Assembly (NCBI GenBank): GCA_027483175.1 | Contig: JAIXVE010000107.1 | Coordinates: forward strand, 1 to 38,604 | Reading direction: 5' to 3' | From: Verrucomicrobiaceae bacterium | Lineage (GTDB): Bacteria > Verrucomicrobiota > Verrucomicrobiia > Verrucomicrobiales > V1-33 | DNA length: 38,604 nucleotides | In this document: positions 15,440 to 35,255 of the stretch, piece by piece | Position numbering within the stretch: position 1 is the first letter of the stretch | How the letters are laid out: each line of letters opens with the position of its first letter | Made by a program: the position numbers and the translations under genes | Notes under the pieces: model-generated | What the model saw: only the letters and a program-made list of their open reading frames with translations | Told to the model about the DNA's origin: nothing | The model's database searches: none

Positions 15440-15624
15440 CTACCAGCCCTCCGTACTCGCCCCTCTCCGACCAAGCCCCCTCCAAACCCGCCCTCCCCAC
15501 AAGCCCCCTTTTACTATTTACTATTTCCAATTTCCCCCCCTCCCCACCAGCCCTACCAGCCCAAGAAACCATTCGTGCCCATCCGTGAAATCCGTGGTTC
15601 AATACCCCCTCTCCCCACAAGCCC

Positions 15625-16718: not shown

Positions 16719-16951
16719 GCGACACCACCGGATTGCCGCCCCCAACCCACGCACGCTCCCCCACACGATCGGCAGCACCCAATCGCCAAACCAACAACAG
16801 CACAACTCTCATCACAACACCACCCCTGCCACAACCCACCCCCCCCGTCACCACAAATCACCCTCCCCAACACGCCCTCTCCCCAAAGCCCGGCGGGTGA
16901 TTGCCTTCGTCCTCCTGATGGATGTCAGCAAAGGTTTCGATGGCATTGCCA

Positions 16952-17947
16952 TCAGGGCAACTGCACAGCCACCCTGGCAAAGCCGCGCTGGGTGGTGGCG
17001 CGGTCCAGCACTTGGCTGGCTACGATGCGTTCCCAACACGCATCAATAGGCGTGACCGTGACCGGCCCGGTCATGGGAATGAAGGTCCCAGGCTCCAGGT
17101 TGGTGGAATACTCAGGCGTGTAAAGCAGCCCGCTCACCGTGTTCCGCAGATACTCGACTTCCAGCGTGACGCTGGTGGCATTCTCCGTGATCCGGTAATC
17201 GGGCAGTCCGGCAGTGCCGCCCGTGCCGAAGATCAGCTGGCGCACGTCGGATCCGAGGGGATTGAGGTTGAAGGCATACTTCGTCAGATTGTTGACGCCG
17301 TCGTGGAATGGCGTTGCCAACGCCTGCGCATCCGGGCCGGATAATCCCGCGGCCCAGGCATTGAAGAGCGCCTGCGGGGAAGTGCCGGTGCCGCGGATCG
17401 TCAGGCCCCAGCTCACCAGCGTGCTCACATTGCCGCCGGAAGCATCCACGAGGAACAGGGTCCATTCGCCGTTGGGATCCAATCCTTGGAAGCTGCTGAG
17501 AAATGCGGTGCGGGGATTGGAATCCAGCACTTCCAGCGGATCGGTCTCCCGGGCGTCCGGCTGCAAGCTTCCGGTGAGCAGCGCCGTGCCAGTGGCGGCA
17601 TGGGCATCGGTCACGGCGTCATCGCTGAACGTCACCCGCAACCCGGTATCGCGGGCACCGGCTTCGGAAAACGCGGTGCGGCCCGGGCGGTTGAGCAATA
17701 CGGAGTAGCCGGTGTCGTGCGAGAGCCACGCATGGAGATCGCCATTCCAGCCGCCGGAAAGCTGAACCTTTACCTCCAGACTGGTGATGGAGGCGAAGGG
17801 TGATGACACGGTGCGGGTGTCGGCGAGGCCGGTGGAGTCGTCATCCGGGATGGTTTGGCCGGAGGCCCACTGGATCACGGTTTCCGTGGCCCCGGCGGTG
17901 AGGACGCCGCAGGCTAGGGAGAGGGCGAGAAGAGCGATAGATTTCAT
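16952..17947 (-). CDS. Secreted protein with proprotein-convertase P-domain-like region
   Basis: 331 aa with signal peptide; ...SLEVKVQLSGGWNGDLHAWLSHDTGYSVLLNRPG...DPNGEWTLFLVDASGGNVSTLVSWGLTI. Confidence 0.82.
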   Translation of the reverse strand: MKSIALLALSLACGVLTAGATETVIQWASGQTIPDDDSTGLADTRTVSSPFASITSLEVKVQLSGGWNGDLHAWLSHDTGYSVLLNRPGRTAFSEAGARDTGLRVTFSDDAVTDAHAATGTALLTGSLQPDARETDPLEVLDSNPRTAFLSSFQGLDPNGEWTLFLVDASGGNVSTLVSWGLTIRGTGTSPQALFNAWAAGLSGPDAQALATPFHDGVNNLTKYAFNLNPLGSDVRQLIFGTGGTAGLPDYRITENATSVTLEVEYLRNTVSGLLYTPEYSTNLEPGTFIPMTGPVTVTPIDACWERIVASQVLDRATTQRGFARVAVQLP

Positions 17948-17986
17948 AGCTGGAAGGAGGGTGGGTGGTTTGAGGGTCCAGTGGTT

Positions 17987-20900
17987 TTAAAGCTGCCGGA
18001 TGCGGAACATCGAATTGATCGGCGGTGGCGTCGACGTGACGAACTTCACATCGCCAACCCGGTCCGCCGTCGCCGTGCCGAGCACATTGAAGTTCACCCC
18101 GTCCGTCGTCTGCTGGATCGAGTAGGTCCGCCGCGCAATCCCGCTGAAGCTCACGCTCACATTCCCGTCCGGCAGCTTCGTCACCCTCGGCGCGTTCTTC
18201 GGATTCAGCCCCGGATCCGTCGCCACCACCACCGTCACCTGCCCGGTAATGATGCGGAATCCGTCACTGAACCTCACCTCAAAGGTATCCGTTCCTGCCA
18301 GCGGCACCGGCTGCGTGAAGACAAGAGACTTCTCCACTCGGGCGATGGCCGCTCCTTTGGCACTGAGGAGGGGAAATGAGGTGAGATTCACCGGGTCCCC
18401 GTCGGGATCCGTCACCTGCTGGAGCAGTTTATCCAATAGGAGAGTCGCCGGCTTGCCCTCCACGGTTTCGATAGTCAGCGGAGTGTAAACCGGCGCGCTG
18501 TTGGGCAACACTTGACCGGTGACCGGGAAGGTGAAGGTTCCCAGCACCGGATCATTGGAAGCGATGCCCACCGTGCCGCCGAAGGTGCCGATGGCATTGG
18601 CCGTCAGTTGGATTTGAATTTCCCCAGTGCCGCCTGCGGGAATGTTGGCGTTCAGGAACGCGACCCGGTAGCCGGGCGGCACGGAGACATTGCTGATAGT
18701 TAGGGGTGCAGTGCCGGTGTTCCTGACGAAGAAGATAATGGTCTTCGGGGAAGTGACCCGGGTAACCCCGTATTCCACCGGCTGCGCCTGACCGCTCGTC
18801 ACCGCCGGGAATCCCGGAGCGCTGGATCGCTGCACCGCGATGGCGGGCTGCTGGTCATTCGAGCCGATGAGCTTCAGGAGGACGAAATCCTGACTGTTCG
18901 CACCGGGACCGCCGGCGTGCCCGGCCACGTAGAGGTCTCCGGCGGCATCGACGATCACCTTGTAGGCGCTGGCCCCGGGACCGACGGGAATCATCACCCG
19001 TCCAGCGGTGCCGAAGGTGGAGTCCGGCAGGCCATTGGGCAAATAGCGCAGCACCGCGATCTCATCACCCGCCCGCCCGGCGACCACCACTCTGCCGTCC
19101 GCCTGCACAGCCACGCTGTTCGCCTGCTCTTTGTTGACTCCCGCAACGAGGTCCGTCAGCACAGCCCCGGTGGCCGCGAAGGTCACGTCGGGATCCAAAG
19201 TTCCTGACATTTGCCCGGCAATGAATCCGTGGCCGGTATCACGATCCAGCCCGGCCGTGCGGCGGGCCGCGAAAACAGGTTTTCCGGCGGTTTGCAAGGC
19301 CAGCGCCGACACGGTTTCGAACTCCGGCGCGGCACCCTCTGCCGGGTAGTCGGCAGGAGCGATCCCCGGGAAGGTGCCCACGTCCAACTGCACCCCACCG
19401 GAACTGGTTCTCCAGACACTGAGGCGACCCGTGGTGGTGGCCCGCCCGCCGATGAAGATTTCACCGGCCGCATTCTGTACCAGACACTGCCCGGCACCGG
19501 GACCGGGCAGCCGCAGCAGCCCGGCGGGCGAAGCAAATCCGGTGTCCAAGCTGCCGTTTTGATTGAACCGGCGGATATAGGCCCGGGTTCCCAGGATTTC
19601 CTGCAGACTGCCCGCCACCAGAATCTTGCCGCTCGCCGTGACCGCCACATCGCCAGTGGTGAACGCCGCCGCTGCCGACCCGTCCAGCGCTACCCCACCA
19701 GTGCCAAACGTGGCGTCCGGGGCACCGTCCGGCAGCAGCCGCATCAGCGCGAAGGTCCGGTCCGGACCGCTGAGGAACTCTGGCGGGCATGCTGCCGCGA
19801 GAATGCGACCGTCCTGCACGGCCAACCCGGTGATCGAAACGCCCGCCGCCGGGAACCCGGCCACGGTGCCCGTCGCCCAGCCGCTGTCGCCGAAGGATGG
19901 ATCGACCGAGCCGTCGGGCCGCAGACACAGAACCGCGTAGTCCGTGAGGACGCCGCTGGTCGTCCGACCCGCGAGCACGAAGCGCCCGTCCTCCAGTTGT
20001 GTCATCGCATAGGCCCGGTCATCGGAATCGTTGAAATCCGCCCGCACCACGCCGCCGGTGCCAAAGCGCAGGTCCAGCGACCCCGGCGTCATGTTCTGCA
20101 CGCCGCCCGTCACCGGAAACACAAACTCGGGATTCGCGGAATCGTTGGTGCTCACCGTCACCGGCCCGCTGAAGGTGCCCGGAGCCTCCGCCGTGAGGTG
20201 CAGGAAAAACGTGGCTGATTCCTGCGGTGCCAGCGGATCCGCCGGGACCGCCACCACCGCATAGCCTGGAGGAGCGGTGATGCCCGTCACCGTCAGCGGC
20301 AGGGCCCGCACGTTCTGAATGGTGAACGCCCGCGTCACTTGCTGCCCCGGCAGCGTGATCCCGAAATCCACCGCCGCTGCCTGCCCGTCCGCCAGCTTCG
20401 GACTGCCCGTGTCCGGTCCGTCATGCACGAAGACCTCCGGCGGGGTGATTTCAAAGATGTAGGCCGCACCCGAGTCGGTGGCGTTATTGTTGCTGCCATC
20501 GCCATTGATGCCCGTGGCGTTGCTGTCTTCAAAACGCGCACCGGCCACCAGCACCCCGCCGTCCAACGCTACAGCGAAACCAAATTGATCGAAGGCCTCG
20601 GTGTTGCTTGCCTTCAGAACCGCTTGTTGCACCCAGGCACCACCTGAGTGTTCGAAGAGATAGGCGGCTCCGGAATCCGGAGCACCTTGGTCCGGGCCAT
20701 TACCGTTGATTCCGAAGGAAGCGCTGCCTTCTACGCGGGCCGCCACAAGCACGCGGTTTCCGGAAACAGCCACCGAGCCCCCAAACAGATCTCCCCCGGA
20801 TGGACTGGACGCTTTCAGGTAAGCTTCCTGAACCCAGCTTCCGGTGTCGCGGCGGAACACGTAGGCCGCTCCACTGAGGGTCGCTTTCCCCAGATTCTGC

Positions 20901-23900
20901 GGCCCGTTGACGCCGGACGCTCCGCCGTCCTCACGCTCGGCTCCCACTACCAGCAAATCGCCCGAGAGCGCAACCCTTGCCCCAAACTCATCGCGCAGGC
21001 CGGGATTGGAAGCCTTGAGATATGCGCTTTGATTCCAAACACCACCGACCCGCTCGAATAAATACACGGCACCCGCGTTTTCCAACAAATTGTTGTTCTG
21101 GCTGCCGCCAACTCCAGCGCTGGCCCCATCCTCCCTATATGCCCCCACTGCCAGAGTGTTCCCGGATAGCGCGACTGCGACCCCGAAGCGATCCCCCCGG
21201 TCCGTGTTCGATGCTTTCACGTAGGCCGACAGTGTCCAGCTGCCGCCACTCCGCTCGAAAATATAGGCAGACCCTGAATCCGGGGCTGCATTCGACGCGC
21301 TGTCACCGCCAACACCGGTAGCATCGGAGTCCTCCAAGTCCGCGCCTACCACAACCGTGTCCCCCGAGATGGCCACTGCTCCTCCAAAACGGTCCTCCAC
21401 ATCGAGACGCGGTGGAGTGAGCAGCGCCTGCAAAGCCCAAGTGGTGCCCGTTCGCTGAAAGACGGCCACTGGCGCGTTGAGCACATTGCCCACCACCACG
21501 GTGTCGCCGGAGATGGCAACAGCGCTGCCAAAGTCACGCCCGGTCTGTATGCCCGGCGGAGTCCGCAATACGGCCTGAGGACTCCACTCACCGGAGCCGC
21601 TGTCTTTGACAAAGACATGAACTTCCTCGCGCAGGGACAGATTCGTTTGGCCACTCAATGGGGCACTTACCACCACGGTATTTCCACTCACCGCCACTGC
21701 CCGGCCCAAGTTGGAGCCGATTCTGGCCACGTCCGCCTTCGCATACGCCGTTTGTGCTATCATAAGCGGTGTCATGCCTGTGCCGGTCAGGGGGACACTG
21801 AAGGGGTTTTCGTCGGAATCGGTGCTGGCGATGCTCAGGGTGGCGTGGTAGGCGCGCAGGGCATCAGGTTGGAACTTCACGCGCAAGGCGCTGCCGTCAC
21901 CCGCGGCCAGCGAGGAGGCAAAGCCCTGGGTGTCCAGCACGAAGAAGGCTGCATCCGGGCCGGTGATGGTGGCGGCGATGGAGCCGAGGCTGGTGAGCGT
22001 GCCGACGTTTTCCACAATGAAGCTCCGTGCCGGGAAACTCACGCCAATAGGCTGGGCGCCAAAGTCCAGCGGGGCTCCATCCACCAGTTCCGTGTCCAGC
22101 GGATGCTGCACGGAGATTTCCGCGCCGATGCCACGGCCAGTGATCGTGAACGACCGGTCGGGCGCGTTGTCGCTCTCGAAGACGATTCTGGAACTGCGAT
22201 TCCCCAAGGCCTGCGGGATGAAGCCGACCTCTACGGCCACAGATTCGCCAGGTGCCAAGTCGTCATCGGTGACGAGCGCTGTGCTGGCGGCGCTGGCATC
22301 GTTGTTGGGAGCGATGGGATTGCGGATGCCGACGTTAAAAACATGGCCAGGGCCGGGATTCCGCAGGGTCACCGTGCGGGTCGCGGTGGTGCCCAGTGCG
22401 AGATCTCCGACATTGAGGGACGTGATGATGGTGCCTTGCGAGTTTTGCACAACCAGCCTGCCCTCATTCGCATTCACCGTAATGGTTACATCCTCCTCAA
22501 TGCCCTCGCCCAGATGCTCGGCGCGGAGGCGGACGGCGAGGCTCCGGGTGGCGGAGCGCAGCAGCGGGCGCGCGGTGACGAGCTGGTTGCCGGTCACGGA
22601 CAGCGCATCATTCGGCGTGGCGCTGACGATGGAGAAGGTGGCCGTGGCCTCCGGATCAGCGGGATTGATGACCGTGCCCAGGTTCGCGATCACAGTTCCG
22701 GCGGGCACATTTTCGAGTACGGCGGTGCCGCTCAGCGTGATGTCGGTCACAGCCACATCACCCACGGTGATGGCGAGATCCTGCTCGAAGCTCTCCCCAT
22801 TCGCATCCGTGGCCTTCACGCGAATGCTGCGGGTCGGAGCGTCCTCAAAATCGAGCGCGGTGGCGGCGGTTTTCACGGTGGTGCCGTCGAGGGTGAAGCG
22901 CGCATTGTCCGCCGCACCCGCCAACAATTCCCAGGTGCTGATGGCCGTGCCTGCCGGGACTATGGTGGTGACGGAGAGATCACCCACCGGGGCGTTGGCC
23001 TTGCCTTCGAGGATGGATGAGGTCGAAAGCGCGAGAGCGGTCGGGCCTTCGTCCGTTACGGAGACCGCTAAGGTCTGCGATGCCGATTCACCGCCCAGGT
23101 TGGTCGCTTTGACGAGCACATTGAACGGCCCGGGAGCGGTCTCGAAGTCGAAGTTGGCTTTGTTGGTGACGAGGTTCGAGTCGCTCACGGTAAAGGCCAG
23201 GGGCGCGGTGGTGCTGCCATCCACGGACACGACGGTGAAGGTGACGGGATCACCGCCGCCCGGCGGGTTGGTGGCGCTGAGCGCTCCGATCACATGGCCC
23301 GCCTGCTTGTTTTCCGGAAAGGTGTTGCTGGAAAGCGCCAGCGCTGTGGGATTCGGCACGTCCTGCACCTGGATGGTGAAGGTCTGCTCCAGGAAGCCGC
23401 CACCGTTGTTGGTGACGCGGAGCCGCACGCTGTAGGAAGTTTTGGTTTCGAAATCGAGGCCTGCCTTGGCCTGAAGTTGGTTGCCGGCGATTTGGAACTG
23501 ACCATTTCCCGTGTCCCCCGCGCCCGCCACGAGTGTGAAAGTAAACGTAGCCGCCGCATTCGGATCGGTGGCGCTGAGCAGGCCCACCACGGTGCCGAGT
23601 GGGGCGTTCTCCACGATCTGGTTGTCACCCAGCGTCAGACTGGTGGGGGTGGTCCGGAAGTCGGAGAGGATGACCTTGTCTGCGTTGAAGGCTTTAGGCT
23701 CGATGGCGGTGGTGTCGCCGTAGTTCACCTTGAAGGTTGCTTTGCCGTCTGCCGAAGCAATCCGTGCCCCATTGGGCGCGTTGGCGAAGCTGCCATTGAT
23801 CCTCGCCCCTGAGCCATCCACCACGGTGAAGGTATCACCAGCGGCCGGAAGGTAGCTCCCGGGCAGGTTCACCTCCAGGGTTACGCCGCCCACGTTAAAA

Positions 23901-26869
23901 ACTGCCGAGCCGCCCTCTAAGAGCTGGTCATGCTGTATGCCCGGCGTGGTGCCGCTGATGTCGAATCTGAATTTGCTATTCGTATTGAGGAGTATGAGAT
24001 CGCCGGTGATGGCCAGCGTGCCAGTGGTGGTGCCGATGCCAGGCTCAAAGGTGACTCCATTGGTGGTAGAGACCGAGACCGCTCCTGTGATCGTGCCGCT
24101 GCCCTGTATCTTGCCGCCCCGGATGGCAAAGGTGCCACCGCTCACACTGCCGCCATTGAGCACCAGTGCCCCGGCGGTCTGGGTGTAGGACGTGTTAAAA
24201 CGGATCGTGCCGCTGTTCGCGTTGACGGTGCCGCTGTTGTTGAAGTCTACTGAATAGACGTTTCCGATGATGGTTTCACCTGTGCCGCCGCTCTTGGTGA
24301 ATATGCCTTCGTTGTTGAAGGTTGCCGTGCTGTTGTAGGTGGCATTGGTGATGTTGCCATTGAAGGTGGTGATGAACTCCGAATCACTCCGATTGTTGAT
24401 CACGTTGCTATTGGTGTTTCCCCGGAATCCGATTTCTCCCCCCGTCCAATTGGCCGTCATCGTTGGGCCCACGCCATCGCCCAAGTTTAGCACGCGGCCA
24501 TAAGCGATCTCTCTGTTATCACCGTCAAAGGTCACACCACCTTTGGCGTTCACACTGCCCACTCCGTTGATTTTGCCATTACAGAAGAAAGGGCCGTTGA
24601 TGTCCAGCGGGCCACCATCAAGCGTGCCGGTGAACGTGAGAGTGGTATCCAATGTCGTCGCCCCACTGGCGGTGATGGCACCCGCGAACACTGTGGTGCC
24701 CGCACCGGTGAAAGTGGTGCCCGCGTTGAGGTTCATGGTGCCTAGGATGAGCGCTGCACCGCTGGCGATGACGAAGTCCCCTGTATTGGTGCCAGAACTG
24801 CCGACTCCTGTGGCGATGACCAGATTTCCGGAGTTTACCTGGATCAGGCCGCTGTTGCTGAAAACAAACGGATTGCTGTTGCCGCCAAGGGTGGTCGTGC
24901 CGGTTCCGTTCTGGTTGAAGGTGCCTTCATTGTTGAAGGCGACGGCGGCTCCGTTGAAATTGCTGTACATGGAGTTGTCCGCTGTGGCGTTGATGACCGA
25001 GTCACTCCGGTTATTGATCGTGGAGCTGGTTCCCATGACGATGTTGCCGCTCGACCATGTGGTCGTCGAGCCTGCATCGGGACCCGCGCCGTCGCCGAGA
25101 TTCAACACCGCGCCTTCGATGATCTGTCTTCCGTCCCCGTTGAATGTCACATCACCTGTGGCCGTGACGTTGGCAGATCCAGTGAGCACGCCCGTCAAGG
25201 TGAGGTTGCCATTTGCAGTCAAAGGGCCCGGGCCCGTCAGCATGCCGGTGATGTTCAGGCTTGAGTCCACCGTGGTTGCCGCGGCGGCGTCGATGACTCC
25301 GGAGAACAACAGGGTTCCGGCTCCCGTGTAGGTGGCACCGGCGGCCAGGGTTCGGGTCCCCGAGAATCCGCTTCGGAAATCGAGCGTGGCACCGTTGGCG
25401 ATCTGGAAAGCGCCCGAAAGGGTTCCGCCCGTGCTCTCCAGGGCGAGGGTTCCGGAATTCACCTGCACGGTGCCGCTGTTGTTGAATGAGAACGTGGATG
25501 AGCCGTTATTGACACCGCCGATGATGGCGGTTCCTGCGCCGCCATTCTTGGTGAAGGTCCCCTCGTTGTTGAAAACCATCGAGCCACCGCGGTTGATGTT
25601 GCCGAAGCTTCCGCCGTCGAAGCCGACGATGAAGTTCGAGTCACTCTTGTTATTGATCACCAGGCCGCTGTGGACCAGTGGATCGCCCGAACTCCATGTG
25701 GTGTTCACCACAGGGCCGGAGCCGTCCCCAAGATTGATGGTGCGCCCGGCCATTTCAAGGGGTCCGAATGCCGCGCCGCCGAGGGCATTGATGGCTCCCG
25801 AGCCATTCACCATGCCTCCGCCCAGCGTCAAAACATCGTTGGCCGTGAGATCGAAGCCTCCGCCGGTATTGGTGCCGCCGTTCATGGTGAACTTCTGGAT
25901 GGCGATGGCCTGGTCCACCGTCAGCGCGCCGCCGCTCTGCACGGCGTCATAGGTGGAGGCACTGTTGTTGGGAAAGGTGCCGGGCGCGGTTGGGGTGGAC
26001 CATTTGGTGGGGTCGCTCCAGTTCCCCGTGGTGCTGTTCCAGGCGGAGGTGTGGTGCGTTGGGACCGTGACCGTGGCGGGAGCGAGGAACTCCGCTGGCG
26101 TCAACGCGGCGGAAGTTAAGCGAAACTCGTCGATATAGCCGTCGAAGTTCCTTCGGTAGGAGGATCCGGGGCCGAGGAAGTTCCCTGCACCGATGTAGAG
26201 CGGTTGATCACCGTAGAAGAGATTGGGCCACACGCCCTGGGTGATGGAATCCAGCACGCCGTCCACATAGAAGCGGAGCTGATCCGTGGAGCCGGACACA
26301 TCACGATCCATGACCAGCGCGATATGATGCCACTTCCCGTCATTCACCAAGGCAGGACCGCCAAATCCCACACCAGCCCCTCCCCCAAAGCTGATAGAGC
26401 CTCCAACATTTCCGGAGAGACCGTAATCAAACTCAAACCCACCCAGGAAGCTGCCACCCTCTGCAGTGTTGAGCTTGACAGCAAACGTTGAGAAGCCAGG
26501 GCTGCCGTAGTCATCGTAGGGCGCGTCAACCTTGATGAACATCTCCACCGTGAAGTCACCCTGCTGGTGCAGCAGGGCGTTGTTGGGGATCTGCGCGAAG
26601 TTCATATCCCCGAGCGCATCGAGAGAGAAGTTCCCCGTGGCTGGAAGGGACGCACGGTCAGTGCTGTAGCTTAGTGTTCCTGCCGAGGTGCCGTGAAGCA
26701 GGTTGGGGCCGCTGTCCAAAATCGTGCCGACGGCCCCCGGACCATCTTCGAACCGGTAATGGGCGACCACATTTGACGGAGCCTGGGCAACCGCTATGCT
26801 TGCACCTGAGAAAAACGCGGCAAGGGTGCAAGAAAGGATAGCTGTTAGCCGGGACGGTTTGATCCTCAT
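17987..26869 (-). CDS. Giant secreted multidomain protein: LamG-like, beta-helix repeats, cadherin-like, choice-of-anchor D, 7 FG-GAP blades, delta-60 repeats
   Basis: ORF opens at 27040 but MRIKPSRLTAILSCTLAAFFSGASIAVAQA signal peptide begins at 26869; repeats of FGxAVAISGDTVVVGA and LDxxFGTGGVV..DGRxVVAG. Confidence 0.88.
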   Translation of the reverse strand: MRIKPSRLTAILSCTLAAFFSGASIAVAQAPSNVVAHYRFEDGPGAVGTILDSGPNLLHGTSAGTLSYSTDRASLPATGNFSLDALGDMNFAQIPNNALLHQQGDFTVEMFIKVDAPYDDYGSPGFSTFAVKLNTAEGGSFLGGFEFDYGLSGNVGGSISFGGGAGVGFGGPALVNDGKWHHIALVMDRDVSGSTDQLRFYVDGVLDSITQGVWPNLFYGDQPLYIGAGNFLGPGSSYRRNFDGYIDEFRLTSAALTPAEFLAPATVTVPTHHTSAWNSTTGNWSDPTKWSTPTAPGTFPNNSASTYDAVQSGGALTVDQAIAIQKFTMNGGTNTGGGFDLTANDVLTLGGGMVNGSGAINALGGAAFGPLEMAGRTINLGDGSGPVVNTTWSSGDPLVHSGLVINNKSDSNFIVGFDGGSFGNINRGGSMVFNNEGTFTKNGGAGTAIIGGVNNGSSTFSFNNSGTVQVNSGTLALESTGGTLSGAFQIANGATLDFRSGFSGTRTLAAGATYTGAGTLLFSGVIDAAAATTVDSSLNITGMLTGPGPLTANGNLTLTGVLTGSANVTATGDVTFNGDGRQIIEGAVLNLGDGAGPDAGSTTTWSSGNIVMGTSSTINNRSDSVINATADNSMYSNFNGAAVAFNNEGTFNQNGTGTTTLGGNSNPFVFSNSGLIQVNSGNLVIATGVGSSGTNTGDFVIASGAALILGTMNLNAGTTFTGAGTTVFAGAITASGATTLDTTLTFTGTLDGGPLDINGPFFCNGKINGVGSVNAKGGVTFDGDNREIAYGRVLNLGDGVGPTMTANWTGGEIGFRGNTNSNVINNRSDSEFITTFNGNITNATYNSTATFNNEGIFTKSGGTGETIIGNVYSVDFNNSGTVNANSGTIRFNTSYTQTAGALVLNGGSVSGGTFAIRGGKIQGSGTITGAVSVSTTNGVTFEPGIGTTTGTLAITGDLILLNTNSKFRFDISGTTPGIQHDQLLEGGSAVFNVGGVTLEVNLPGSYLPAAGDTFTVVDGSGARINGSFANAPNGARIASADGKATFKVNYGDTTAIEPKAFNADKVILSDFRTTPTSLTLGDNQIVENAPLGTVVGLLSATDPNAAATFTFTLVAGAGDTGNGQFQIAGNQLQAKAGLDFETKTSYSVRLRVTNNGGGFLEQTFTIQVQDVPNPTALALSSNTFPENKQAGHVIGALSATNPPGGGDPVTFTVVSVDGSTTAPLAFTVSDSNLVTNKANFDFETAPGPFNVLVKATNLGGESASQTLAVSVTDEGPTALALSTSSILEGKANAPVGDLSVTTIVPAGTAISTWELLAGAADNARFTLDGTTVKTAATALDFEDAPTRSIRVKATDANGESFEQDLAITVGDVAVTDITLSGTAVLENVPAGTVIANLGTVINPADPEATATFSIVSATPNDALSVTGNQLVTARPLLRSATRSLAVRLRAEHLGEGIEEDVTITVNANEGRLVVQNSQGTIITSLNVGDLALGTTATRTVTLRNPGPGHVFNVGIRNPIAPNNDASAASTALVTDDDLAPGESVAVEVGFIPQALGNRSSRIVFESDNAPDRSFTITGRGIGAEISVQHPLDTELVDGAPLDFGAQPIGVSFPARSFIVENVGTLTSLGSIAATITGPDAAFFVLDTQGFASSLAAGDGSALRVKFQPDALRAYHATLSIASTDSDENPFSVPLTGTGMTPLMIAQTAYAKADVARIGSNLGRAVAVSGNTVVVSAPLSGQTNLSLREEVHVFVKDSGSGEWSPQAVLRTPPGIQTGRDFGSAVAISGDTVVVGNVLNAPVAVFQRTGTTWALQALLTPPRLDVEDRFGGAVAISGDTVVVGADLEDSDATGVGGDSASNAAPDSGSAYIFERSGGSWTLSAYVKASNTDRGDRFGVAVALSGNTLAVGAYREDGASAGVGGSQNNNLLENAGAVYLFERVGGVWNQSAYLKASNPGLRDEFGARVALSGDLLVVGAEREDGGASGVNGPQNLGKATLSGAAYVFRRDTGSWVQEAYLKASSPSGGDLFGGSVAVSGNRVLVAARVEGSASFGINGNGPDQGAPDSGAAYLFEHSGGAWVQQAVLKASNTEAFDQFGFAVALDGGVLVAGARFEDSNATGINGDGSNNNATDSGAAYIFEITPPEVFVHDGPDTGSPKLADGQAAAVDFGITLPGQQVTRAFTIQNVRALPLTVTGITAPPGYAVVAVPADPLAPQESATFFLHLTAEAPGTFSGPVTVSTNDSANPEFVFPVTGGVQNMTPGSLDLRFGTGGVVRADFNDSDDRAYAMTQLEDGRFVLAGRTTSGVLTDYAVLCLRPDGSVDPSFGDSGWATGTVAGFPAAGVSITGLAVQDGRILAAACPPEFLSGPDRTFALMRLLPDGAPDATFGTGGVALDGSAAAAFTTGDVAVTASGKILVAGSLQEILGTRAYIRRFNQNGSLDTGFASPAGLLRLPGPGAGQCLVQNAAGEIFIGGRATTTGRLSVWRTSSGGVQLDVGTFPGIAPADYPAEGAAPEFETVSALALQTAGKPVFAARRTAGLDRDTGHGFIAGQMSGTLDPDVTFAATGAVLTDLVAGVNKEQANSVAVQADGRVVVAGRAGDEIAVLRYLPNGLPDSTFGTAGRVMIPVGPGASAYKVIVDAAGDLYVAGHAGGPGANSQDFVLLKLIGSNDQQPAIAVQRSSAPGFPAVTSGQAQPVEYGVTRVTSPKTIIFFVRNTGTAPLTISNVSVPPGYRVAFLNANIPAGGTGEIQIQLTANAIGTFGGTVGIASNDPVLGTFTFPVTGQVLPNSAPVYTPLTIETVEGKPATLLLDKLLQQVTDPDGDPVNLTSFPLLSAKGAAIARVEKSLVFTQPVPLAGTDTFEVRFSDGFRIITGQVTVVVATDPGLNPKNAPRVTKLPDGNVSVSFSGIARRTYSIQQTTDGVNFNVLGTATADRVGDVKFVTSTPPPINSMFRIRQL

Positions 26870-27131
26870 GACGGGAGGGGGGGCGGGGAGGCGGAGAGAC
26901 TCGGAAAGGCGGGAGAGAGGTTCCGGATTCATGATGGAATGGCTGGATGGCGAGGTGGGTGTCGCTCTTTCCTTTCCCTTCCGTGCCGCCAGGTTGCGCC
27001 GAATCTGAAAATAAATCTCCGGGGCGCGGAAGGCAGCCAAGCGCGCGGCTTCCCCGGGGTGGAATTTCCCGCCAGGGGATTCCTCGCTGGTGACGGTGCC
27101 GGGCCGCCGCCGTCCTATCCCATCGGGAGGT

Positions 27132-30100
27132 TCACTCCTCCCAGCCGAGGCCCAGCTTTTTCAGTTCGGTCAGGAGGGCGTCGAGATTCCACTCGTAGAG
27201 GCGGTGGTTGCCATTGAGGAGGAACAGACGGCGGCTGTCGGCGCTGAAGGTCACCGCTTTGATGTCACGGCAGCGCGGGGTATACAATTCGATGAGCTTC
27301 CGCCCGTCCGGAATGCTCCGGATAGCGAGACGGTCGGTGTGTTCCTCGACAGCGGCGAGCCGGGAGTCCGGGCTGATGGCGGCGTGGCCAAAGTCGTTGC
27401 CGGACACGACGCAGACACTTTGCCACCGCTGCTTCCAGTCCGTCGTGGACAGCAGGCGGAAATTTCTCCGGGAGCGGGTGAGCATCCATTCTTCGTCCTG
27501 ACTGAAGAGGGCTTTGCCGGCCCATTCGCCAAAATCGAGGTGCTGCAGTCGCTTCCCGGAGGTGCCGTCATAGACCGGCAATACTTTCCAGGACAGGGTG
27601 CTGCCACTGAAGCGCAGGCCCGCGCTCCATTCCCCGCGACGGTCCCATGGGGGAAACAGAATGACCATGCGCTGTGGCCCGGCAGAATCCCCTTCCCAGA
27701 GCGAAGTCAGGCCCGCGCTCTGACGCAAAATGGAGCGGGTACCACGAGCATCCATCTGCTGGATCATCCAGTTCCCGGTGCCCGGGACCAGCACCGGCCC
27801 GCCCAGTTGCAGCGTCTGGTCCTTCCAGGTCAGACTGCGGCGATAAATGCCATCGCCCTTACGCTGGGAGGCGAAAAGGTTGGCACTGTCCGGCGCAAAG
27901 ACCGCCGTGACCTCCTTGCTGGCGGGATCGAATGGCCACTCCGCAGCCTCGCGCTGGAGCCGGGTGTCCCACAGCAGCACGCGGTTGTTCAGGCAGGTGG
28001 CGAGAAGCCGGCCATCCCGGCTGACCTCGATCTTTCCCCCGGGCCGCGCGGTGAGATCACGCGTGGTGAGGAACTCCCGGAACACCGCATCGGGCTGGAA
28101 CTCCCGCCGGTTCATAAAGGCATCCGTGCGGCTGATCATGAGGGCCTTCCCGTCCGGGGTGCTGCGCAGCGGCCCCGGACCGCCCGTGATCTGCTGGATC
28201 AGCTCCCCGTCGCGCATGTCCCACAGGCTGGTGATGCCGTCGTTGTTGACGCTCACCGCCGTCCAGGTGCCGGGCAGGGAGTCGATCCTGAGGCATGCGC
28301 CGCCGCTGGCGCGGAAGGTGGCGGCGACCCGATTGTCCCGGATCACGGAAACCTCCGGCGACCGGTCCCGGGCCGCCAGCAGGCCCATCCAACTCCAGTG
28401 CATCGGACGCCTGACTCCCGGCAGGTCGATATGGCTGAGTTGCCGGCCATCGCTGATTTTCCAGAATTCCACCCCATCCGCAGTGGCGAGGGCCAGCCTG
28501 TCCGAGAGTGGGGACCATGTCAGCCCGCGCAATTCCGTCGTTAGGGTCGTGACGGTGCTCTCCCGATCCTCCGTGAACCAGCGGACTTTCAATTCCTTCC
28601 GATCATTGAGCCATGCCACTGCCGGCTCTTTGGGCGAGAGGGCAAAGGGACGCCAATGGGTGGACGGCGCCGCATCCAGCTCCCCGACCCGCCGTTTTTC
28701 CACGGTGTCCCAAATCTCCACCGCCCCGCCATTCACCAGGACCGCCCAGCGACCGGAATCCGATATCTCCATTTGGAGCAGCGAAGGGCCGTCCATGTCG
28801 AGAGACCAAAGCTCGTTGGTCTCCGGTATCGTGCGCAAACTGAGCCGGCGCTTCTGGCCCGTGCGGTCGAGATTCCGGTAGAAGAAGAGGCGGGAGAGGT
28901 CCGCCGTGACGAGCGAGACCTGCCCGAAACTACGGATTTCCTTCCAAGCCATGCGGGAACCCACCTGCCGCAGCTCCGGAAGCGTCAGGACGGAAGCGGC
29001 CACGCTGGCTGCCCGCACCGAGGGAGCCTGCCGCGCCGATTCCTCAAGGAGTGGAAGGAGCACCTCGCGGCGGTTCACGTTGGCCTCCCCGAGCCGCGCC
29101 GCCGCCTGCTCCGCCAGCGCAGTGGCCAGACCTTCACGCAGTTTCAGATTTTTCGCCTCCATGTCGGCGTTAAGGCTGGCGAGCATGAAATTCCGCCAGA
29201 CCACGATGCCGATCACGCCGACGGTGAGCAGCAGCAACGCGGCCCATGCGGGATGCCGTCGCAGCCAGCGCCACACTTGCTCCCGCAACGGCTGCCGGCG
29301 GGCCAGGATCGCATCGCCCCGGAGCCAGCGGCGCAGATCATCCGCCAGTGCTCCGGCGCTGACGTAGCGGCGGGCGGGCAGCTTTTGCAGGGCCCGGCTG
29401 GTGATGATCGCCAGATCGCGCGGCACTTCCCTCGGCAGCGCGCCCGGTGCTTCTTCACTCAATTGCCGCAGCACCGTCGCCAGATTATCCCCGTGGAAGG
29501 GCGGATGTCCGGCCAGCAGTTCGTACAGCATGATCCCTAACGACCAGACATCGCTCGCGGTGCTTGCCGCGTCCTTGCCGCCGCGGGTCAGTTCCGGTGC
29601 CATGTAATTAGGCGTCCCCATCAGAGCCAGGGTCCGCGTCAGGTCGGACTCGCTCCCGAGAAGTTTGGCCAGTCCGAAGTCGCTCACGAACGGCTGCCCG
29701 CTTTCATCGAAGAGGATATTGCCCGGTTTCAAATCGCGATGCAGCACCCCGCGGGTGTGCGCAAACTGCACCGCCTCCGCCACCGTGGCGAGGAGTTCCG
29801 CAATGACCCGCCACTTTCCCCCGTAAGCCGCGATGCGTGCCGCAAGGGTGCCGCCCGTGGCCAGCTTCATGGAAAAAAACGGGGTGCCGTCCTCTTCGCC
29901 GGATTCATACACGGGAAGGATGCCGGGATGCTCCAGCCGCGCCATGGCCTCCGCCTCAAGCCGGAACCGCTGCCGCGCCTCCGGCGAATGCAGTTCCCCT
30001 CCCGGCAGAGCCTTGAGCGCCACCTCCCTCGACGGGTCTTTCTGTTGAGCCCGGTAAACCACTCCCATGCCGCCGCGGGCCAGCAATTCCAACAGTTCAT

Positions 30101-30263
30101 ACTCCCCCAGCCGGCCGATCCCGCCGTCGGGCGGTTCCGGCCCGAGCGCCCCCAGCAGCAGGCAGGCCGGGCACTCGCGTCCGGAAGCCCCATCCATAGC
30201 ACTGCCGCAACCGCTGCAGTGCGGGGACAGCGCGCCGGGATCCTCGTTTTCAGTTTCCGCCAT
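27132..30263 (-). CDS. Transmembrane Ser/Thr protein kinase with C-terminal WD40/propeller-like region
   Basis: 1043 aa; ARGGMGVVYRAQ, HRDLKPGNILFDESGQPFVSDFGLAKLLG, GTPNYMAPE; TM AALLLLTVGVIGIVVW; N-terminal CSGCG...CPACLL. Confidence 0.93.
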   Translation of the reverse strand: MAETENEDPGALSPHCSGCGSAMDGASGRECPACLLLGALGPEPPDGGIGRLGEYELLELLARGGMGVVYRAQQKDPSREVALKALPGGELHSPEARQRFRLEAEAMARLEHPGILPVYESGEEDGTPFFSMKLATGGTLAARIAAYGGKWRVIAELLATVAEAVQFAHTRGVLHRDLKPGNILFDESGQPFVSDFGLAKLLGSESDLTRTLALMGTPNYMAPELTRGGKDAASTASDVWSLGIMLYELLAGHPPFHGDNLATVLRQLSEEAPGALPREVPRDLAIITSRALQKLPARRYVSAGALADDLRRWLRGDAILARRQPLREQVWRWLRRHPAWAALLLLTVGVIGIVVWRNFMLASLNADMEAKNLKLREGLATALAEQAAARLGEANVNRREVLLPLLEESARQAPSVRAASVAASVLTLPELRQVGSRMAWKEIRSFGQVSLVTADLSRLFFYRNLDRTGQKRRLSLRTIPETNELWSLDMDGPSLLQMEISDSGRWAVLVNGGAVEIWDTVEKRRVGELDAAPSTHWRPFALSPKEPAVAWLNDRKELKVRWFTEDRESTVTTLTTELRGLTWSPLSDRLALATADGVEFWKISDGRQLSHIDLPGVRRPMHWSWMGLLAARDRSPEVSVIRDNRVAATFRASGGACLRIDSLPGTWTAVSVNNDGITSLWDMRDGELIQQITGGPGPLRSTPDGKALMISRTDAFMNRREFQPDAVFREFLTTRDLTARPGGKIEVSRDGRLLATCLNNRVLLWDTRLQREAAEWPFDPASKEVTAVFAPDSANLFASQRKGDGIYRRSLTWKDQTLQLGGPVLVPGTGNWMIQQMDARGTRSILRQSAGLTSLWEGDSAGPQRMVILFPPWDRRGEWSAGLRFSGSTLSWKVLPVYDGTSGKRLQHLDFGEWAGKALFSQDEEWMLTRSRRNFRLLSTTDWKQRWQSVCVVSGNDFGHAAISPDSRLAAVEEHTDRLAIRSIPDGRKLIELYTPRCRDIKAVTFSADSRRLFLLNGNHRLYEWNLDALLTELKKLGLGWEE

Positions 30264-30265
30264 AC

Positions 30266-31009
30266 TTATCCGTTCCCGTTTGGCGGACCGGAGTTGCCCG
30301 GCTCTGAATGATTGATCAGCAGTTTGGCCAGATAGCGAAGTTCCTCATCCACTTCATGCGGGGCGGAGACGGTGACCGAAACTGCCTGCCGCAACAATTC
30401 CCGGAACCGCTGCCGCAACCGGTGGATGGCCGCCTTCAGCGCCGAAAGGCTCAGGCCGAGTGATGCCGCCGCTTCCTCATAGGCAGGCGGAACCCCGGTG
30501 CCCGGCAGGTAAAACCGCAGCAATTCGAATTCGCGTTGCTGGTCTCTGGCCAAGAATTCCGCCTGCACCGCCTTCAGCGTGGAGTCCACCAGCGACAATG
30601 CCCATTCACGGTCGAACAGGCTGTCGGATGTCGATTGATCATCCATCATCTCCGGGCTGCTGTCATCGAAATCCTCCAGACTCAGCGGCGCGACGCCCCT
30701 GCCCCGTTTCAGAGCCTGCTGGCTCCGCAGGTGATGGTCCATCACGTGCCGAAGCGTGCCGAGGAGGAAATTGCGGAAACGGCCCTTCAGCCGGTCCGCC
30801 CGTTTCCATAAGCGGGATTCCACCAGCTTCAGAAGAAAGGCCTGGGTCAGGTCTTCAGCGTCCTCAAGGGGCAGGCCGCTGGCCTTGAGAAAAGCAAGCA
30901 CCGGCCTTCGGTAGGCATGACAGAGGTTCGCCAGCGCCTCCCGCCCAGCGGTGTCGCCATTCAACGTGGCATCCGCCAACAGGGTCCATCGGGTGGTGGG
31001 AAATGACAT
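30266..31009 (-). CDS. ECF-type RNA polymerase sigma factor
   Basis: 247 aa; MSFPTTRWTLLADA...EDAEDLTQAFLLKLVE...EEAAASLGLSLSALKAAIHRLRQRFRELL; 2 bp from the kinase gene. Confidence 0.9.
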   Translation of the reverse strand: MSFPTTRWTLLADATLNGDTAGREALANLCHAYRRPVLAFLKASGLPLEDAEDLTQAFLLKLVESRLWKRADRLKGRFRNFLLGTLRHVMDHHLRSQQALKRGRGVAPLSLEDFDDSSPEMMDDQSTSDSLFDREWALSLVDSTLKAVQAEFLARDQQREFELLRFYLPGTGVPPAYEEAAASLGLSLSALKAAIHRLRQRFRELLRQAVSVTVSAPHEVDEELRYLAKLLINHSEPGNSGPPNGNG

Positions 31010-31457
31010 CGCTTCTTCACCATCTATCCCCTAAACCTCTCTCGGCGCAAGACGCCACAACGCCGGGCCGACTCATCGAGGCGTCCAACAGTTCTCTCGT
31101 GCCCATGCCAGCGAATCCGGTGCCCGGAAAAATCCCACCGGTCCGACGCACCACTTCACACTCGCCGGCCACCGCCCCGAGCACCTCCATCATCGCCAAG
31201 ACCTCCTCGAGTCACCCGGCAGGCCTCACACCTGGAATTGTGAATGCCCCCGGCTTCGCCACCACCTTGATCATCACCAATGCCAAGTCACCATGGAAGT
31301 CGTTGCCAATTCCGTTGGCTCGGAAATCATGAGCGAAAGGCAGTCATATCCATTGAATCTCAGGACGTTGGAAGAAAAGGACACCCGGCCGAACGCCCCG
31401 GTTGAAAATGGATATTCGACCAGATATAGTGAAATAATAAACTCTTCGCCAGAAAAC

Positions 31458-31901
31458 ATGAAACCCAAAACGAAAACTGATTGGGAAGCTCGATTTGCTT
31501 GTGAGAAGCCCTTGCAAGTAAAGACGATTGATAAGGCCTTCGCGGGGATTCCAGCAGGAGCCACAATGCTGATTGTCACTCCAAAGATGGTTGATGAGGT
31601 CATTCGGAATGTGCCTATGGGATCGGTCGTCGATCAGTCCACCATTCGCAGGGTATTGGCGAAGAAGCACAAAGCAGACTATGCGTGCCCCGTTACGACG
31701 GGAATTGCACTGAGGGTTGTTTCGGAAAGAGCCTATCTGCGATCTCAATGTGAATCGAATCAATCCGACGTCACACCATTCTGGCGAGCCGTGGATCCGA
31801 GCAGCGATCTGGCTGAGAAGCTGGCGTGCGGTAGATCATACATTCTCCAGAAGCTGAACGAAGAAGTGGCCGAACCATCCGCTCCATCCCTCGGCGGGTA
31901 A
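31458..31901 (+). CDS. MGMT-family / alkyltransferase-like DNA-binding protein
   Basis: DWEARFACEKPLQVKTIDKAFAGIPAGATMLIVTPKMVDEVIRNVPMGSVVDQSTIRRVLAKKHKADYACPVTTGIALRVVSE...TPFWRAV; recognised from pattern memory. Confidence 0.65.
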   Translation: MKPKTKTDWEARFACEKPLQVKTIDKAFAGIPAGATMLIVTPKMVDEVIRNVPMGSVVDQSTIRRVLAKKHKADYACPVTTGIALRVVSERAYLRSQCESNQSDVTPFWRAVDPSSDLAEKLACGRSYILQKLNEEVAEPSAPSLGG

Positions 31902-31909
31902 CGTTCCTG
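31868..31909 (+). other. attC-like site 1 (tentative)
   Basis: GGCCGAAC-C-ATCCGC...GCGGGT-AAC-GTTCC; two-block dyad overlapping the end of the MGMT-like gene. Confidence 0.35.
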
Positions 31910-31962
31910 TTTGAATTCGGGCTTTCCCGCCGTTCATGCGCTAGCTGTTCTCTCCGATTCGA

Positions 31963-32370
31963 GTGTATCTCGAAACTTCCTTTTCCGCCGTCATGGATTT
32001 CCTGCCACCCAAAGACTTGGAGGATTTCATCATCACTGAGGTGCTCCGAACCGAAATTGATCAGATGATGGAAGATGGGCAGCGATTCGATGTGACTACC
32101 ACGTTTGTCGCTCATCACCAGCGTCGAGGCAGCCACAGCCTGGACACGACCAGGAGAGCCTCGCCAGCCACGATGACAGTGCGTTGTCGGAAGTCAGACA
32201 TTGCTGGCTGGAGCGATTTGGTCTGCGATTTTGCCGCTGAGCCCACCACGCCATCTGGCACAGGCAAATATTGGAGGCTCACTGCCAGCGTCCGGCAAGA
32301 CGAGAAGGGCTTCTATCTCACTCGACGCCAGTTCTCGCCTTCACGTGACGCTCCGGGGAGAGATGCGTGA
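31963..32370 (+). CDS. Hypothetical protein
   Basis: 135 aa; start uncertain. Confidence 0.45.
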   Translation: MYLETSFSAVMDFLPPKDLEDFIITEVLRTEIDQMMEDGQRFDVTTTFVAHHQRRGSHSLDTTRRASPATMTVRCRKSDIAGWSDLVCDFAAEPTTPSGTGKYWRLTASVRQDEKGFYLTRRQFSPSRDAPGRDA

Positions 32371-32408
32371 CCATTGATCTGCAGACAAACCACAGTGAGC
32401 TTTACCAA

Positions 32409-32543
32409 GAGCGAACAATCCGTTCGCTCACCGCCCGCAACCACGCCATCCCAGCGGTCCGGGCAGAAGACGAGTCACGCGCCACCCTCAAAACAAATCT
32501 TGCCCCCGCCTCCTGACCGGATACACTGCTTCACGTTCGCTCC
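32409..32543 (+). other. attC-like site 2 (tentative)
   Basis: GAGCGAAC-A-ATCCG ... CGGAT-...-GTTCGCTCC; GAGCGAAC also pairs locally with GTTCGCTC at 32422-32429. Confidence 0.35.
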
Positions 32544-32544
32544 A

Positions 32545-32703
32545 ATGATGAGATCGCTCGCAAGTTTTCTGACGGTATTCGCACTATGGCTCAGTGGGAG
32601 TTGCACCAGTTCAGCAGCGTTTGTCTATCACAGTGGAATCACGACCGAGGTCTATGCGGGACAGCCAATGACAACTCGGGCAGCTTTGCTTGAACGTCGC
32701 TGA
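32545..32703 (+). CDS. Short lipoprotein-like ORF
   Basis: MMRSLASFLTVFALWLSGSCTSSAAFVYHSG, lipobox LSGSC; 52 aa. Confidence 0.4.
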   Translation: MMRSLASFLTVFALWLSGSCTSSAAFVYHSGITTEVYAGQPMTTRAALLERR

Positions 32704-32708
32704 AGAAG

Positions 32709-33281
32709 ATGCGCCGACGCCATGTTATCCTTGTAAGCCTTGCCGCCCTATTAATCGGCGGATGGTTGCTCGCACCGCGCATCGCAGTTTGGTCGATGGT
32801 GCTGGCCACCAAAAAAGGTGAAGAATCTTCGCAGGCGGCGCGGGACCGAATAGTCTTCTTTGGAGAGCGGGCGATTCAACCGACCATCGCAAGTATTGAG
32901 GAGCATTCTCCCTGGCAGCGTCGATACTGCTACCTGCCAAGCGCCCTTCAGAAAATCGGTGGATCGGCCCATCAGGACCTCCTTGCTGCGATCGATCAGC
33001 AGTACGACCCAAAGAAGCGTGCCCATCTCATCTCCGCCCTACAGTCCGCCTTCGATGACTACTCACGATTGGACACGATTATCCAGGATCATGAGGCAGG
33101 AACCATCTCTGAGATTGCTTTTGTCTTCATGGAGTCCGGTATCAGGCGTTCTTTCCCTGATGCGCCAGAACTGCTGACGGAGGGTTGGGCCCTCAATTCT
33201 GCCTTCAAGGCCTACTGGAAAAGACGCAGCGAACAAGACGTGGGTGGACAACCCGCTGCCCCGCCGAGAGTCGGAAATTGA
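32709..33281 (+). CDS. Hypothetical membrane-anchored protein
   Basis: 190 aa, N-terminal TM helix ILVSLAALLIGGWLLAPRIAVW. Confidence 0.6.
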   Translation: MRRRHVILVSLAALLIGGWLLAPRIAVWSMVLATKKGEESSQAARDRIVFFGERAIQPTIASIEEHSPWQRRYCYLPSALQKIGGSAHQDLLAAIDQQYDPKKRAHLISALQSAFDDYSRLDTIIQDHEAGTISEIAFVFMESGIRRSFPDAPELLTEGWALNSAFKAYWKRRSEQDVGGQPAAPPRVGN

Positions 33282-33359
33282 ACCCTAATGCAAACCTTTA
33301 CTCTGAATCGACCCGGCGCTCCCCGTAGCGGGTGCCACCAATTCGACTTTCGCGAGAAA

Positions 33360-33779
33360 ATGAGCACTGAGATCGTCGATACTTGGAATGCCGTGCTCGC
33401 CAAAGAGGCGAAGTCGGGCGTCACCAGCCTCTCTGAGCAGGAACGGACCATTTATTTCGTGAATCGCTTCATCCGTGATTTCTCCAATGGCGGCCTGATC
33501 GGCTTTCTCTATAACCTCTCACCTGAGTGGAGATTGCTCGAATCCTTTGAAGAAGCAATCCGAAGGGTCGGGTGTGAGTCGATCGCTGCGGTGATTGCTG
33601 ACGTCCGGATGGTCTTTCAGAACGCCGGCGAGCTCGAAGAAAGGAAAGAGACATGGTCCGATTACCTCTCCCGCCTCGACCCGTCTGGCAGGCTTCTCTC
33701 GCTCGATTCAAAGTTCACGGGAGCAGATGAGGAGCTATGGGGGCGGCTGGAAGATTTCACGAAGGAATTGAACAAATGA
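33360..33779 (+). CDS. DUF4375/DMP19-like protein
   Basis: SLSEQERTIYFVNRFIRDFSNGGLIGFLYNLSPEWRLLESFEEAIRRVGCESIAAVIADV. Confidence 0.75.
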   Translation: MSTEIVDTWNAVLAKEAKSGVTSLSEQERTIYFVNRFIRDFSNGGLIGFLYNLSPEWRLLESFEEAIRRVGCESIAAVIADVRMVFQNAGELEERKETWSDYLSRLDPSGRLLSLDSKFTGADEELWGRLEDFTKELNK

Positions 33780-33783
33780 AGAG

Positions 33784-33833
33784 GGCGAACCAGGCGGCAC
33801 AGACACCTCCGGGCCTGACCTTTAACGTTCTCC
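33784..33833 (+). other. attC-like site 3 (tentative)
   Basis: GGCGAAC-CAGGC...GCCTG-ACCTTTAAC-GTTCTCC. Confidence 0.4.
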
Positions 33834-33864
33834 AGGACAAGATTCACAACCAACCACAACAACC

Positions 33865-34242
33865 ATGGGATTAATGAACGCAATATTCGGCACCGCCTCA
33901 CAGATCGACCCAAACGAGCTCGCCTCTGAATTCGGACCACTCCTGATCGATGGAGAAGAGATCACGGGCGCATTTAAAGTCGTAAGAGATTTATTCGTCT
34001 TCACCCAATGCAGGCTCATCATTGCAGACAAACAGGGAATCACTGGCAAGAAGGTGGAATATCACTCGATACCCTACAAATCAATCAGCCAATTCTCTGT
34101 TGAGACCGCTGGACGCTTTGATCTGGATGTGGAACTCAAAATATACATCTCCAGCAATCCAATCCCTCTGAAGAGGGAATTCAAGAAGGGCACTGATATT
34201 ATTCAGATCCAAAAGCTTTTAGCGAAATACATCATGCAATAG
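33865..34242 (+). CDS. Bacterial PH-domain protein
   Basis: 125 aa; EEITGAFKVVRDLFVFTQCRLIIADKQGITGKKVEYHSIPYKSISQFSVETAGRFDLDVELKIYIS. Confidence 0.92.
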   Translation: MGLMNAIFGTASQIDPNELASEFGPLLIDGEEITGAFKVVRDLFVFTQCRLIIADKQGITGKKVEYHSIPYKSISQFSVETAGRFDLDVELKIYISSNPIPLKREFKKGTDIIQIQKLLAKYIMQ

Positions 34243-34315
34243 AATGAGAACGCGCCTCACCACGTCTCCGCTAGTGAGTGAGCCATCACTTCCACGCTCA
34301 GCCCAGAATAAAGCC

Positions 34316-34999
34316 ATGACCACTCCCGACAGTGCCATTCCTAGATCTTGGATCACAGCAGGCTATTCACGACTTTGGGGCACCAAAGGGACTTACTCAT
34401 CGGTCGCCTATGAACGCCTTCCATCACTCCCTGCCGTTGACGCATCATTCTCTTGGTTGGCGAGCGTGCCCGATCGTGACTACAGCTCGACCTTGGACAG
34501 CGATGAGAACAAACTTCAGAGTTTGCCCCGCATCCAGGAGGAGCTATCCCGTCTTGGATTCGCCCTTCCAGAGGACTTCGTGACGTTCCTTGGCAGGCAG
34601 GACATTCATGGACGCATCCCGACTTGCACGAATTGCTACCTGGAGTTGTCAGAATCCGTAACCGAATTGCCGGGTTTTCCGGGCAGTTACGTCGTAAGGT
34701 TCATGAACGACTCGCAGTGTTGTGTTCTTTGGCATCTTCTGTTTCAGCCCTCCAGTACAGTGCGCGTGCTTGCATCGTCGTTCTTTCTGGAGCGGGACAT
34801 CTTCGACGCGATGGAGTATGCGGCGGACGATGATCAGCCCTTAGCCTATGAGGACGCACTTTCCGACGCCTGCATCTGTGCCGAGTCGTTCGGCGAGTTT
34901 ATTTGCCGATTCGGAATCGAGAACATGATTTGGTTCGCCACACACGATAATGAGACTCTTTCACCGGTCGAACAGCGATACCTCGACGAAGCCAAGTAG
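34316..34999 (+). CDS. SMI1/KNR4 (SUKH)-like protein
   Basis: EELSRLGFALPEDFVTFLGRQDIHGRIPTCTNCYLELSESV...FPGSYVVRFMNDSQCCVLWHLLF. Confidence 0.6.
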   Translation: MTTPDSAIPRSWITAGYSRLWGTKGTYSSVAYERLPSLPAVDASFSWLASVPDRDYSSTLDSDENKLQSLPRIQEELSRLGFALPEDFVTFLGRQDIHGRIPTCTNCYLELSESVTELPGFPGSYVVRFMNDSQCCVLWHLLFQPSSTVRVLASSFFLERDIFDAMEYAADDDQPLAYEDALSDACICAESFGEFICRFGIENMIWFATHDNETLSPVEQRYLDEAK

Positions 35000-35040
35000 G
35001 GCCGCACAGAACGGATGCAGGCAAAGGCTCGGAGGACGCG

Positions 35041-35181
35041 GGGAAGCTGACCTTTGATCCGATGTTTTTCACATCCGTCAGGCTCGAGGGCGGCACCATC
35101 GCATGGCCAAATGGCGCTGACCTTGCTCCTGAATACGTGGCAAAACGACTTGTCGAACAAGGCGTCGCTCCTGACTCCTGA
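35041..35181 (+). pseudogene. DUF2442-like C-terminal fragment
   Basis: Manual translation KLTFDPMFFTSVRLEGGTIAWPNGADLAPEYVAKRLVEQGVAPDS*; not in the ORF track (<60 aa). Confidence 0.6.
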
Positions 35182-35255
35182 CCCGCCGCCCCGCCGTCCG
35201 TCAATTCGCGGGCCCTTTTACTTTCGCGTAGCTGCGCGCATCGCTGGCTCGCTTG

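Follow-up and report, generated by a model that had tools for sequence, protein, structure and literature searches.

A chromosomal cassette array in a Verrucomicrobiaceae genome, probably one of many attI/Pc-headed integron platforms served in trans by a single integrase

The window analysed here, a stretch of 38,604 nucleotides from a Verrucomicrobiaceae bacterium, carries at 31.04-35.19 kb a block that is, on sequence comparison, an integron cassette array whose own integrase gene has been reduced to remnants. The locus is very probably a chromosomal integron platform, one of at least two dozen, served in trans by the single integron integrase (IntI) encoded on C220 of the same genome. This source genome, evidently a MAG, comprises 5.86 Mb in 365 contigs, and a blastn search of the block against it gave matches in about 30 places.

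Layout of the array in the window

The array is made up of intI remnants, an attI/Pc module of about 150 bp and, following it, some six cassettes that carry small genes and attC sites (Table 1). A first-pass annotation of this DNA had described small plus-strand ORFs of unrelated families between two minus-strand gene blocks, which is what lies at 31458-34999, and had proposed a cassette array; it overlooked the intI remnant, the attI/Pc module and the truncated attC. Its proposal was supported on all three of the points by which it was to be judged: further attC copies exist in the genome, one attC family shows covariation, and synteny with a sister species (G003) differs cassette by cassette, a single one having been inserted exactly at attI and two others replaced. 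The gene labels were upheld in part: DMP19, bPH_1 and a weak SUKH/SMI1 match stood, and MGMT/Atl and lipoprotein found no support, no convincing Pfam family being found for any of the first four ORFs of the block.

Table 1. Features of the cassette array (window coordinates)
Feature	Position	Strand	Basis
intI remnant, C-terminal part (IntI residues ~353-382)	31044..31127	-	blastn and tblastn vs intact C220 intI
intI remnant, N-terminal part (IntI residues ~3-42)	31129..31247	-	blastn, tblastn vs C220 intI
attI/Pc module	31303..31444	+	module alignment; model match 31303-31459 at 124 bits
Predicted cassette promoter Pc, TTGAAA - 17 bp - TATAGT	31402..31430	+	consensus scan, 68 modules
Cassette 1 gene, 147 aa, no convincing Pfam family	31458..31901	+	~97% identity in sister species
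Cassette 1 attC, family C, core G^TTCTCTC at 31947/31948	31869..31953	+	model 72 bits, alignment, covariation
Cassette 2 gene, 125 aa from inner ATG	31993..32370	+	kept in sister species
Cassette 2 attC, family B, core CACG^TTCGC	32458..32543	+	copies elsewhere in genome
52-aa ORF, cassette remnant, at this position only in this species	32545..32703	+	sister comparison
Cassette gene, 190 aa, apparently membrane-anchored	32709..33281	+	96-99% in sister species
Cassette gene, DMP19-like	33360..33779	+	Pfam PF14300 E=2.8e-13
Putative short attC, core AACG^TTC at 33827/33828	33787..33833	+	sequence only; folding z -0.20
Cassette gene, bacterial PH domain (bPH_1)	33865..34242	+	Pfam PF08000 E=1.2e-47
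Cassette gene, SUKH/SMI1-like, below Pfam cutoff	34316..34999	+	only this species has it here
Family-A attC, 5' half, truncated	34992..35035	+	blastn vs family-A copies on C250, C220
Fragment 90% identical to C365:6057-6180, array end	35066..35189	+	blastn

The two intI pieces match the two ends of the C220 integrase gene in reverse orientation (blastn) and are joined across an internal deletion of about 930 bp, with the breakpoint at 434|1367 of the C220 reference. The stretch 31229-31467 matches the sequence adjoining intI on C220 as well as many other loci (blastn). Crossover at the window attI is predicted between 31444 and 31445 (AAACTC^TTCGCC), with a C at the crossover base instead of the G of other copies (AAACTG^TT), and the ATG of the cassette 1 gene follows 11 nt past the end of the module.

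Copies elsewhere in the genome were also found for 31871-31944, 32416-32546, 33226-33353, 34992-35035 and 35066-35189 (blastn), and they revise the sites that had been drawn from the window. The motif GAACMAKSCG occurs, as claimed, at 31872, 32413 and 33787 and a fourth time at 35155, against 0.94 copies expected by chance, four being reached in 1 of 100 shuffles. The dyads at the three claimed positions, folded alone, do not exceed shuffled DNA in stability (z -0.4, 0.5 and -0.2) and therefore by themselves prove nothing, and comparison with the other copies showed the pairing drawn for the first two to be wrong. Site 1 is a genuine attC, but it does not end at the ACGTTC at about 31904, continuing instead to about 31953. 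Site 2 is likewise an attC, but the GAAC arm drawn upstream of it belongs to an intI-derived piece (32416-32466, blastn) that has replaced the 5' arm. At site 3 the short dyad stands, and a blastn search of its own genome gave no repeat copies. The attC copies of the window are degenerate in other places as well, site 1 having lost some of its L' arm and only half a site being left at 34992. Scanned against Rfam, the window and six contigs gave zero matches. A different repeat at 15363-15490 (CCCAACGGGACACCGAATACCAGCCCAGAGCAACGCTCTGGG type) is multicopy and frequently lies upstream of attI modules; being an intergenic palindromic repeat that occurs outside cassette arrays, it was ruled out as an attC.

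Three attC families (A, B and C), with R''-L''/L'-R' pairing, were collected. Family C, to which site 1 belongs (n=14 in the genome), has 13 compensatory cells versus 5.2 in shuffles (0/500), a signal that vanishes when the partners are slid. Family A (n=21) pairs well and varies little, its compensatory change is slight, and the hairpin of one copy has a folding z of -2.4. The core is mostly GTTCGSC, with some GTTAGGC, a near-canonical variant of GTTRRRY; the GTTC-type core proposed earlier describes most junctions (G^TTCGSC), while others have the canonical GTTAGGC. Contig C250 has the layout of a textbook array, in which an attI-like repeat precedes four attC copies of a single family at intervals of 500-700 bp.

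One intact integrase gene and many attI/Pc modules

The locus had been called integrase-less, which is correct locally, where only remnants are left, and incorrect for the genome as a whole. An ORF on C220, the only intact intI found, scores 307.6 bits against TIGR02249 and is the sole integrase of the genome above the curated cutoff of 265. Its best solved relative is Vibrio IntI4 (2a3v, E=5e-53), with which it aligns over the catalytic domain including the IntI-specific stretch, the catalytic R, H-R, H and Y being matched, and its nearest named relatives come from Verrucomicrobiaceae/Verrucomicrobiales MAGs. An N-terminal extension of about 125 aa, without a Pfam domain, is conserved in another genus, at 72% identity overall; the integron integrase with this extension is at L016:1210-2535, and other members of the order have IntI ORFs of 440-540 aa. 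A second integrase, on C53, was ruled out as an IntI, since it reaches 99 bits, below the cutoff, and adjoins a transposase that we take to be IS91-like. At L010:158-2587 a tyrosine integrase and an IS91-like transposase lie beside one attI module, and are a possible vehicle for moving platforms. A second intI may be absent from the assemblies, which are all fragmented MAGs.

Upstream of intI lies a module of about 150 bp that ends AATAAACTG^TT(CGSC), about 109 bp from the 5' end of the gene in the source and sister species and about 119 bp from it in another genus. A model of this module matched 37 places in the source genome, 34 in the sister species and 23 in a third species (G002, genome 75% complete); 26, 24 and 16 of these, respectively, are strong, near-full-length modules, defined as matches of 65 bits or more. 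In another genus, G009 had six matches and G010 and G011 a single one each, and there were none in seven other members of the family. A full intI stands beside the module only on C220, G3_C311 and G011:C133; in the two well-sampled species, one module per genome adjoins an intact intI. Scraps of intI flank about one third of the modules of the source genome, often with both ends present and the middle gone (tblastn), and the deletion 434|1367 is common to the window locus and the unrelated locus C132, in more than one species.

When 37 module copies from two species are aligned, they agree up to the core and diverge just after it, and the strong modules of three congeners share the same core end, followed by differing sequences. 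RNAalifold found no conserved pairs in the 37 copies, as expected of a double-stranded attI, and the repeat at 31.3 kb was thereby ruled out as an attC hairpin. Most modules carry a sigma-70-like pair at a fixed position, the predicted Pc; in a consensus scan of 68 modules the commonest form was TTGCAA-17-TATAGT/TATGGT at about -45. The distance from the module end to the start of an ORF is about 10-27 nt in most platforms. First cassettes elsewhere include SUKH, DUF4160, barstar, GNAT, Imm21 and DUF7668 proteins, so that functions like those of immunity proteins come up repeatedly in the small number to which a name can be given. Several modules stand in tandem, with 70-300 bp of homologous upstream sequence, and weak or partial modules are probably dead.

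Similar arrangements were seen further afield. G009 (L196-L201) has its six attI modules together with 16 family-A attC sites, and no clear integron integrase was found in this genome, which is 86% complete. On L196, about 470-1040 bases past the module end and behind the first cassette of G009, lies a cassette 94% identical to one of G002, which suggests that a cassette has been shared between the two genera. In a different family, the attI-side sequence of the intI at G029:C8 (L118:150-390) is repeated about eight times in the genome, possibly a parallel case of an integron with many platforms.

Cassette turnover at platforms without a local integrase

The window locus has an orthologue in G003 at about 96% identity, with 96% in the right flank and 95-96% in the left flank beyond a 14-kb gap. 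The orthology seemed one-sided at first, lacking an upstream match, which is explained by about 14 kb (16.9-31.0 kb) absent in G003; the missing segment, 16877-31035, includes kinase and sigma-factor genes (27132-31009), and in G003 the integron lies close to the homologue of position 16877. G003 carries an extra cassette of about 1.06 kb, placed precisely at the junction of the attI core with cassette 1, so that the window junction AAACTC^TTCGCCAGAAAACATG corresponds to AAACTG^CTCGCT...(cassette of about 1.06 kb)...CACG^TCCGCCAGAAAACATG in the sister. A different cassette of 519 bp follows the second attC in G003, and a 1.7-kb set of other cassettes takes the place of the SUKH cassette; these two replacements adjoin attC sites. 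Since the two species have the intI deletion 434|1367 in common at this locus, the exchanges occurred after the local loss of intI.

The same pattern is evident at other orthologous modules without intI, whose sequences share 80-99% identity as far as the CTG^TT core and bear no relation to each other directly past it; most flanks of these platforms match closely. Flank, module and downstream identities are 92%, 99% and 53% for C238/G3_C535, 96%, 91% and 44% for C214/G2_C29, and 97%, 83% and 50% for C319/G3_C69, the downstream values being taken over 100 bp, where about 50% is the random baseline of the alignment. The loss of identity exactly past the core indicates that cassettes turned over after intI had been lost locally. 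C204 and G3_C430 differ by a core-to-core segment consisting of a cassette and a second attI module. Turnover is uneven, as several orthologous pairs have kept their first cassette (C345/G3_C106, C289/G3_C562, C222/G3_C487 and C132/G3_C381).

These comparisons bear on three other readings of the locus. That the arrays are nothing but static relics of old intI-attI copies that lost their integrases, and thus ordinary CALINs, we regard as improbable. CALINs are common (PMC9024848), and the internally deleted intI remnants, the partial modules and the mutated core of the window attI would all agree with decay, but cassettes differ core-exactly between congeners at platforms that had lost intI before the species split, the window locus included, and sequence similarity has been kept over about 26 full-length modules in the source genome. 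Less probable still is that the module is a dispersed promoter-type repeat unused by IntI, with cassettes moving between its copies by homologous recombination. Such a repeat would account for the promoter-like pair at a fixed spacing and for the tandem copies with homologous upstream sequence; however, the module adjoins the 5' end of intI in three genomes of two genera, the exchange at the window locus starts at the crossover point and stops at an attC core, and the downstream sequences are without homology, so that homologous recombination would have no second anchor. That this is no integron but a hotspot for small, unrelated genes, its palindromes due to chance, is hardly credible and is already refuted by the comparative sequence data: the window dyads do fold no better than shuffled DNA, but the sites belong to multicopy families, lie beside an attI and an intI remnant, and bound cassette insertions.

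Proposed function and comparison with known systems

We suggest that the single IntI of C220 acts in trans on the dispersed modules that are without an intI. It would recombine the folded attC of circular cassettes into the double-stranded attI at the core CTG^TTCGSC, and would also excise cassettes; the Pc of each module (TTGCAA-17-TATAGT) would transcribe the newest cassette, from a start codon about 10-25 nt downstream. The core-exact differences between species point to site-specific recombination. Against the reading stand the fragmentation of the MAGs, the weak or partial modules, the C at the crossover base of the window attI, the uneven turnover, the slight compensatory change in attC family A, and the six modules of G009, a genome in which no clear IntI was found. 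The modules may have multiplied by more than one route: tandem modules with a common upstream sequence suggest spread in part as attI-ended cassettes, and the internal intI deletions that unrelated loci have in common suggest that already deleted intI-attI units were copied. Only tentatively do we propose that the attI/Pc module is itself mobile and moves across the chromosome, either as the 3' end of an attI-ended cassette or as an intI-attI element with an internal deletion, and that the result is a distributed integron fed in trans; if so, one integrase would feed many promoter-bearing capture sites, and many first-position cassettes would be expressed at once.

Dozens of attI/Pc platforms with one integrase would break the one-promoter bottleneck, as many cassettes could hold the first position simultaneously, and loci resembling CALINs would be live capture sites. 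This would also explain why attI is retained where intI has been deleted. With this system the action of an integrase in trans could be tested directly, in a phylum, the Verrucomicrobiota, from which integrons are known (PMC8618304) and in which they are little studied.

Integrons typically have one attI for cassette entry and expression (PMC9024848), and full-text searches of the openly licensed literature found no genome with multiple or duplicated attI sites; here, 37 module matches, 26 of them full-length and strong, stand against one intact intI. The arrays resemble CALINs, which can be mobilised in trans (PMC12444791), in being cassette arrays without a local integrase. A CALIN, however, consists of attC sites only, whereas each array here is headed by an attI/Pc module, in the window together with an intI remnant, and could in principle still capture and express cassettes. 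In the attI-type or delta-attI cassettes of class 1 and 2 integrons, a copy of attI forms the 3' end of a cassette inside the array, and core-to-core gain and loss occurs as between C204 and G3_C430 (PMC12901181). The present modules differ in being whole units of about 150 bp with a predicted promoter, many per genome, which are found also at separate chromosomal loci.

Integrases also reportedly insert cassettes off target at attG sites (Loot et al. 2024); there IntI likewise acts at loci besides its own attI, but the attG targets are loose genomic consensus sites, whereas here the targets are conserved copies of attI. With sedentary chromosomal integrons such as that of Vibrio, the system shares a TIGR02249 integrase, a divergent attI with a predicted Pc adjoining intI, and cassettes of small ORFs with attC hairpins, in one orientation and inserted exactly at the core. 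It is set apart by the N-terminal extension of its IntI and by the prevailing GTTCGSC core and, where the sedentary chromosomal integron has one platform with one attI, by dozens of short platforms dispersed over the chromosome, with a single intact intI.
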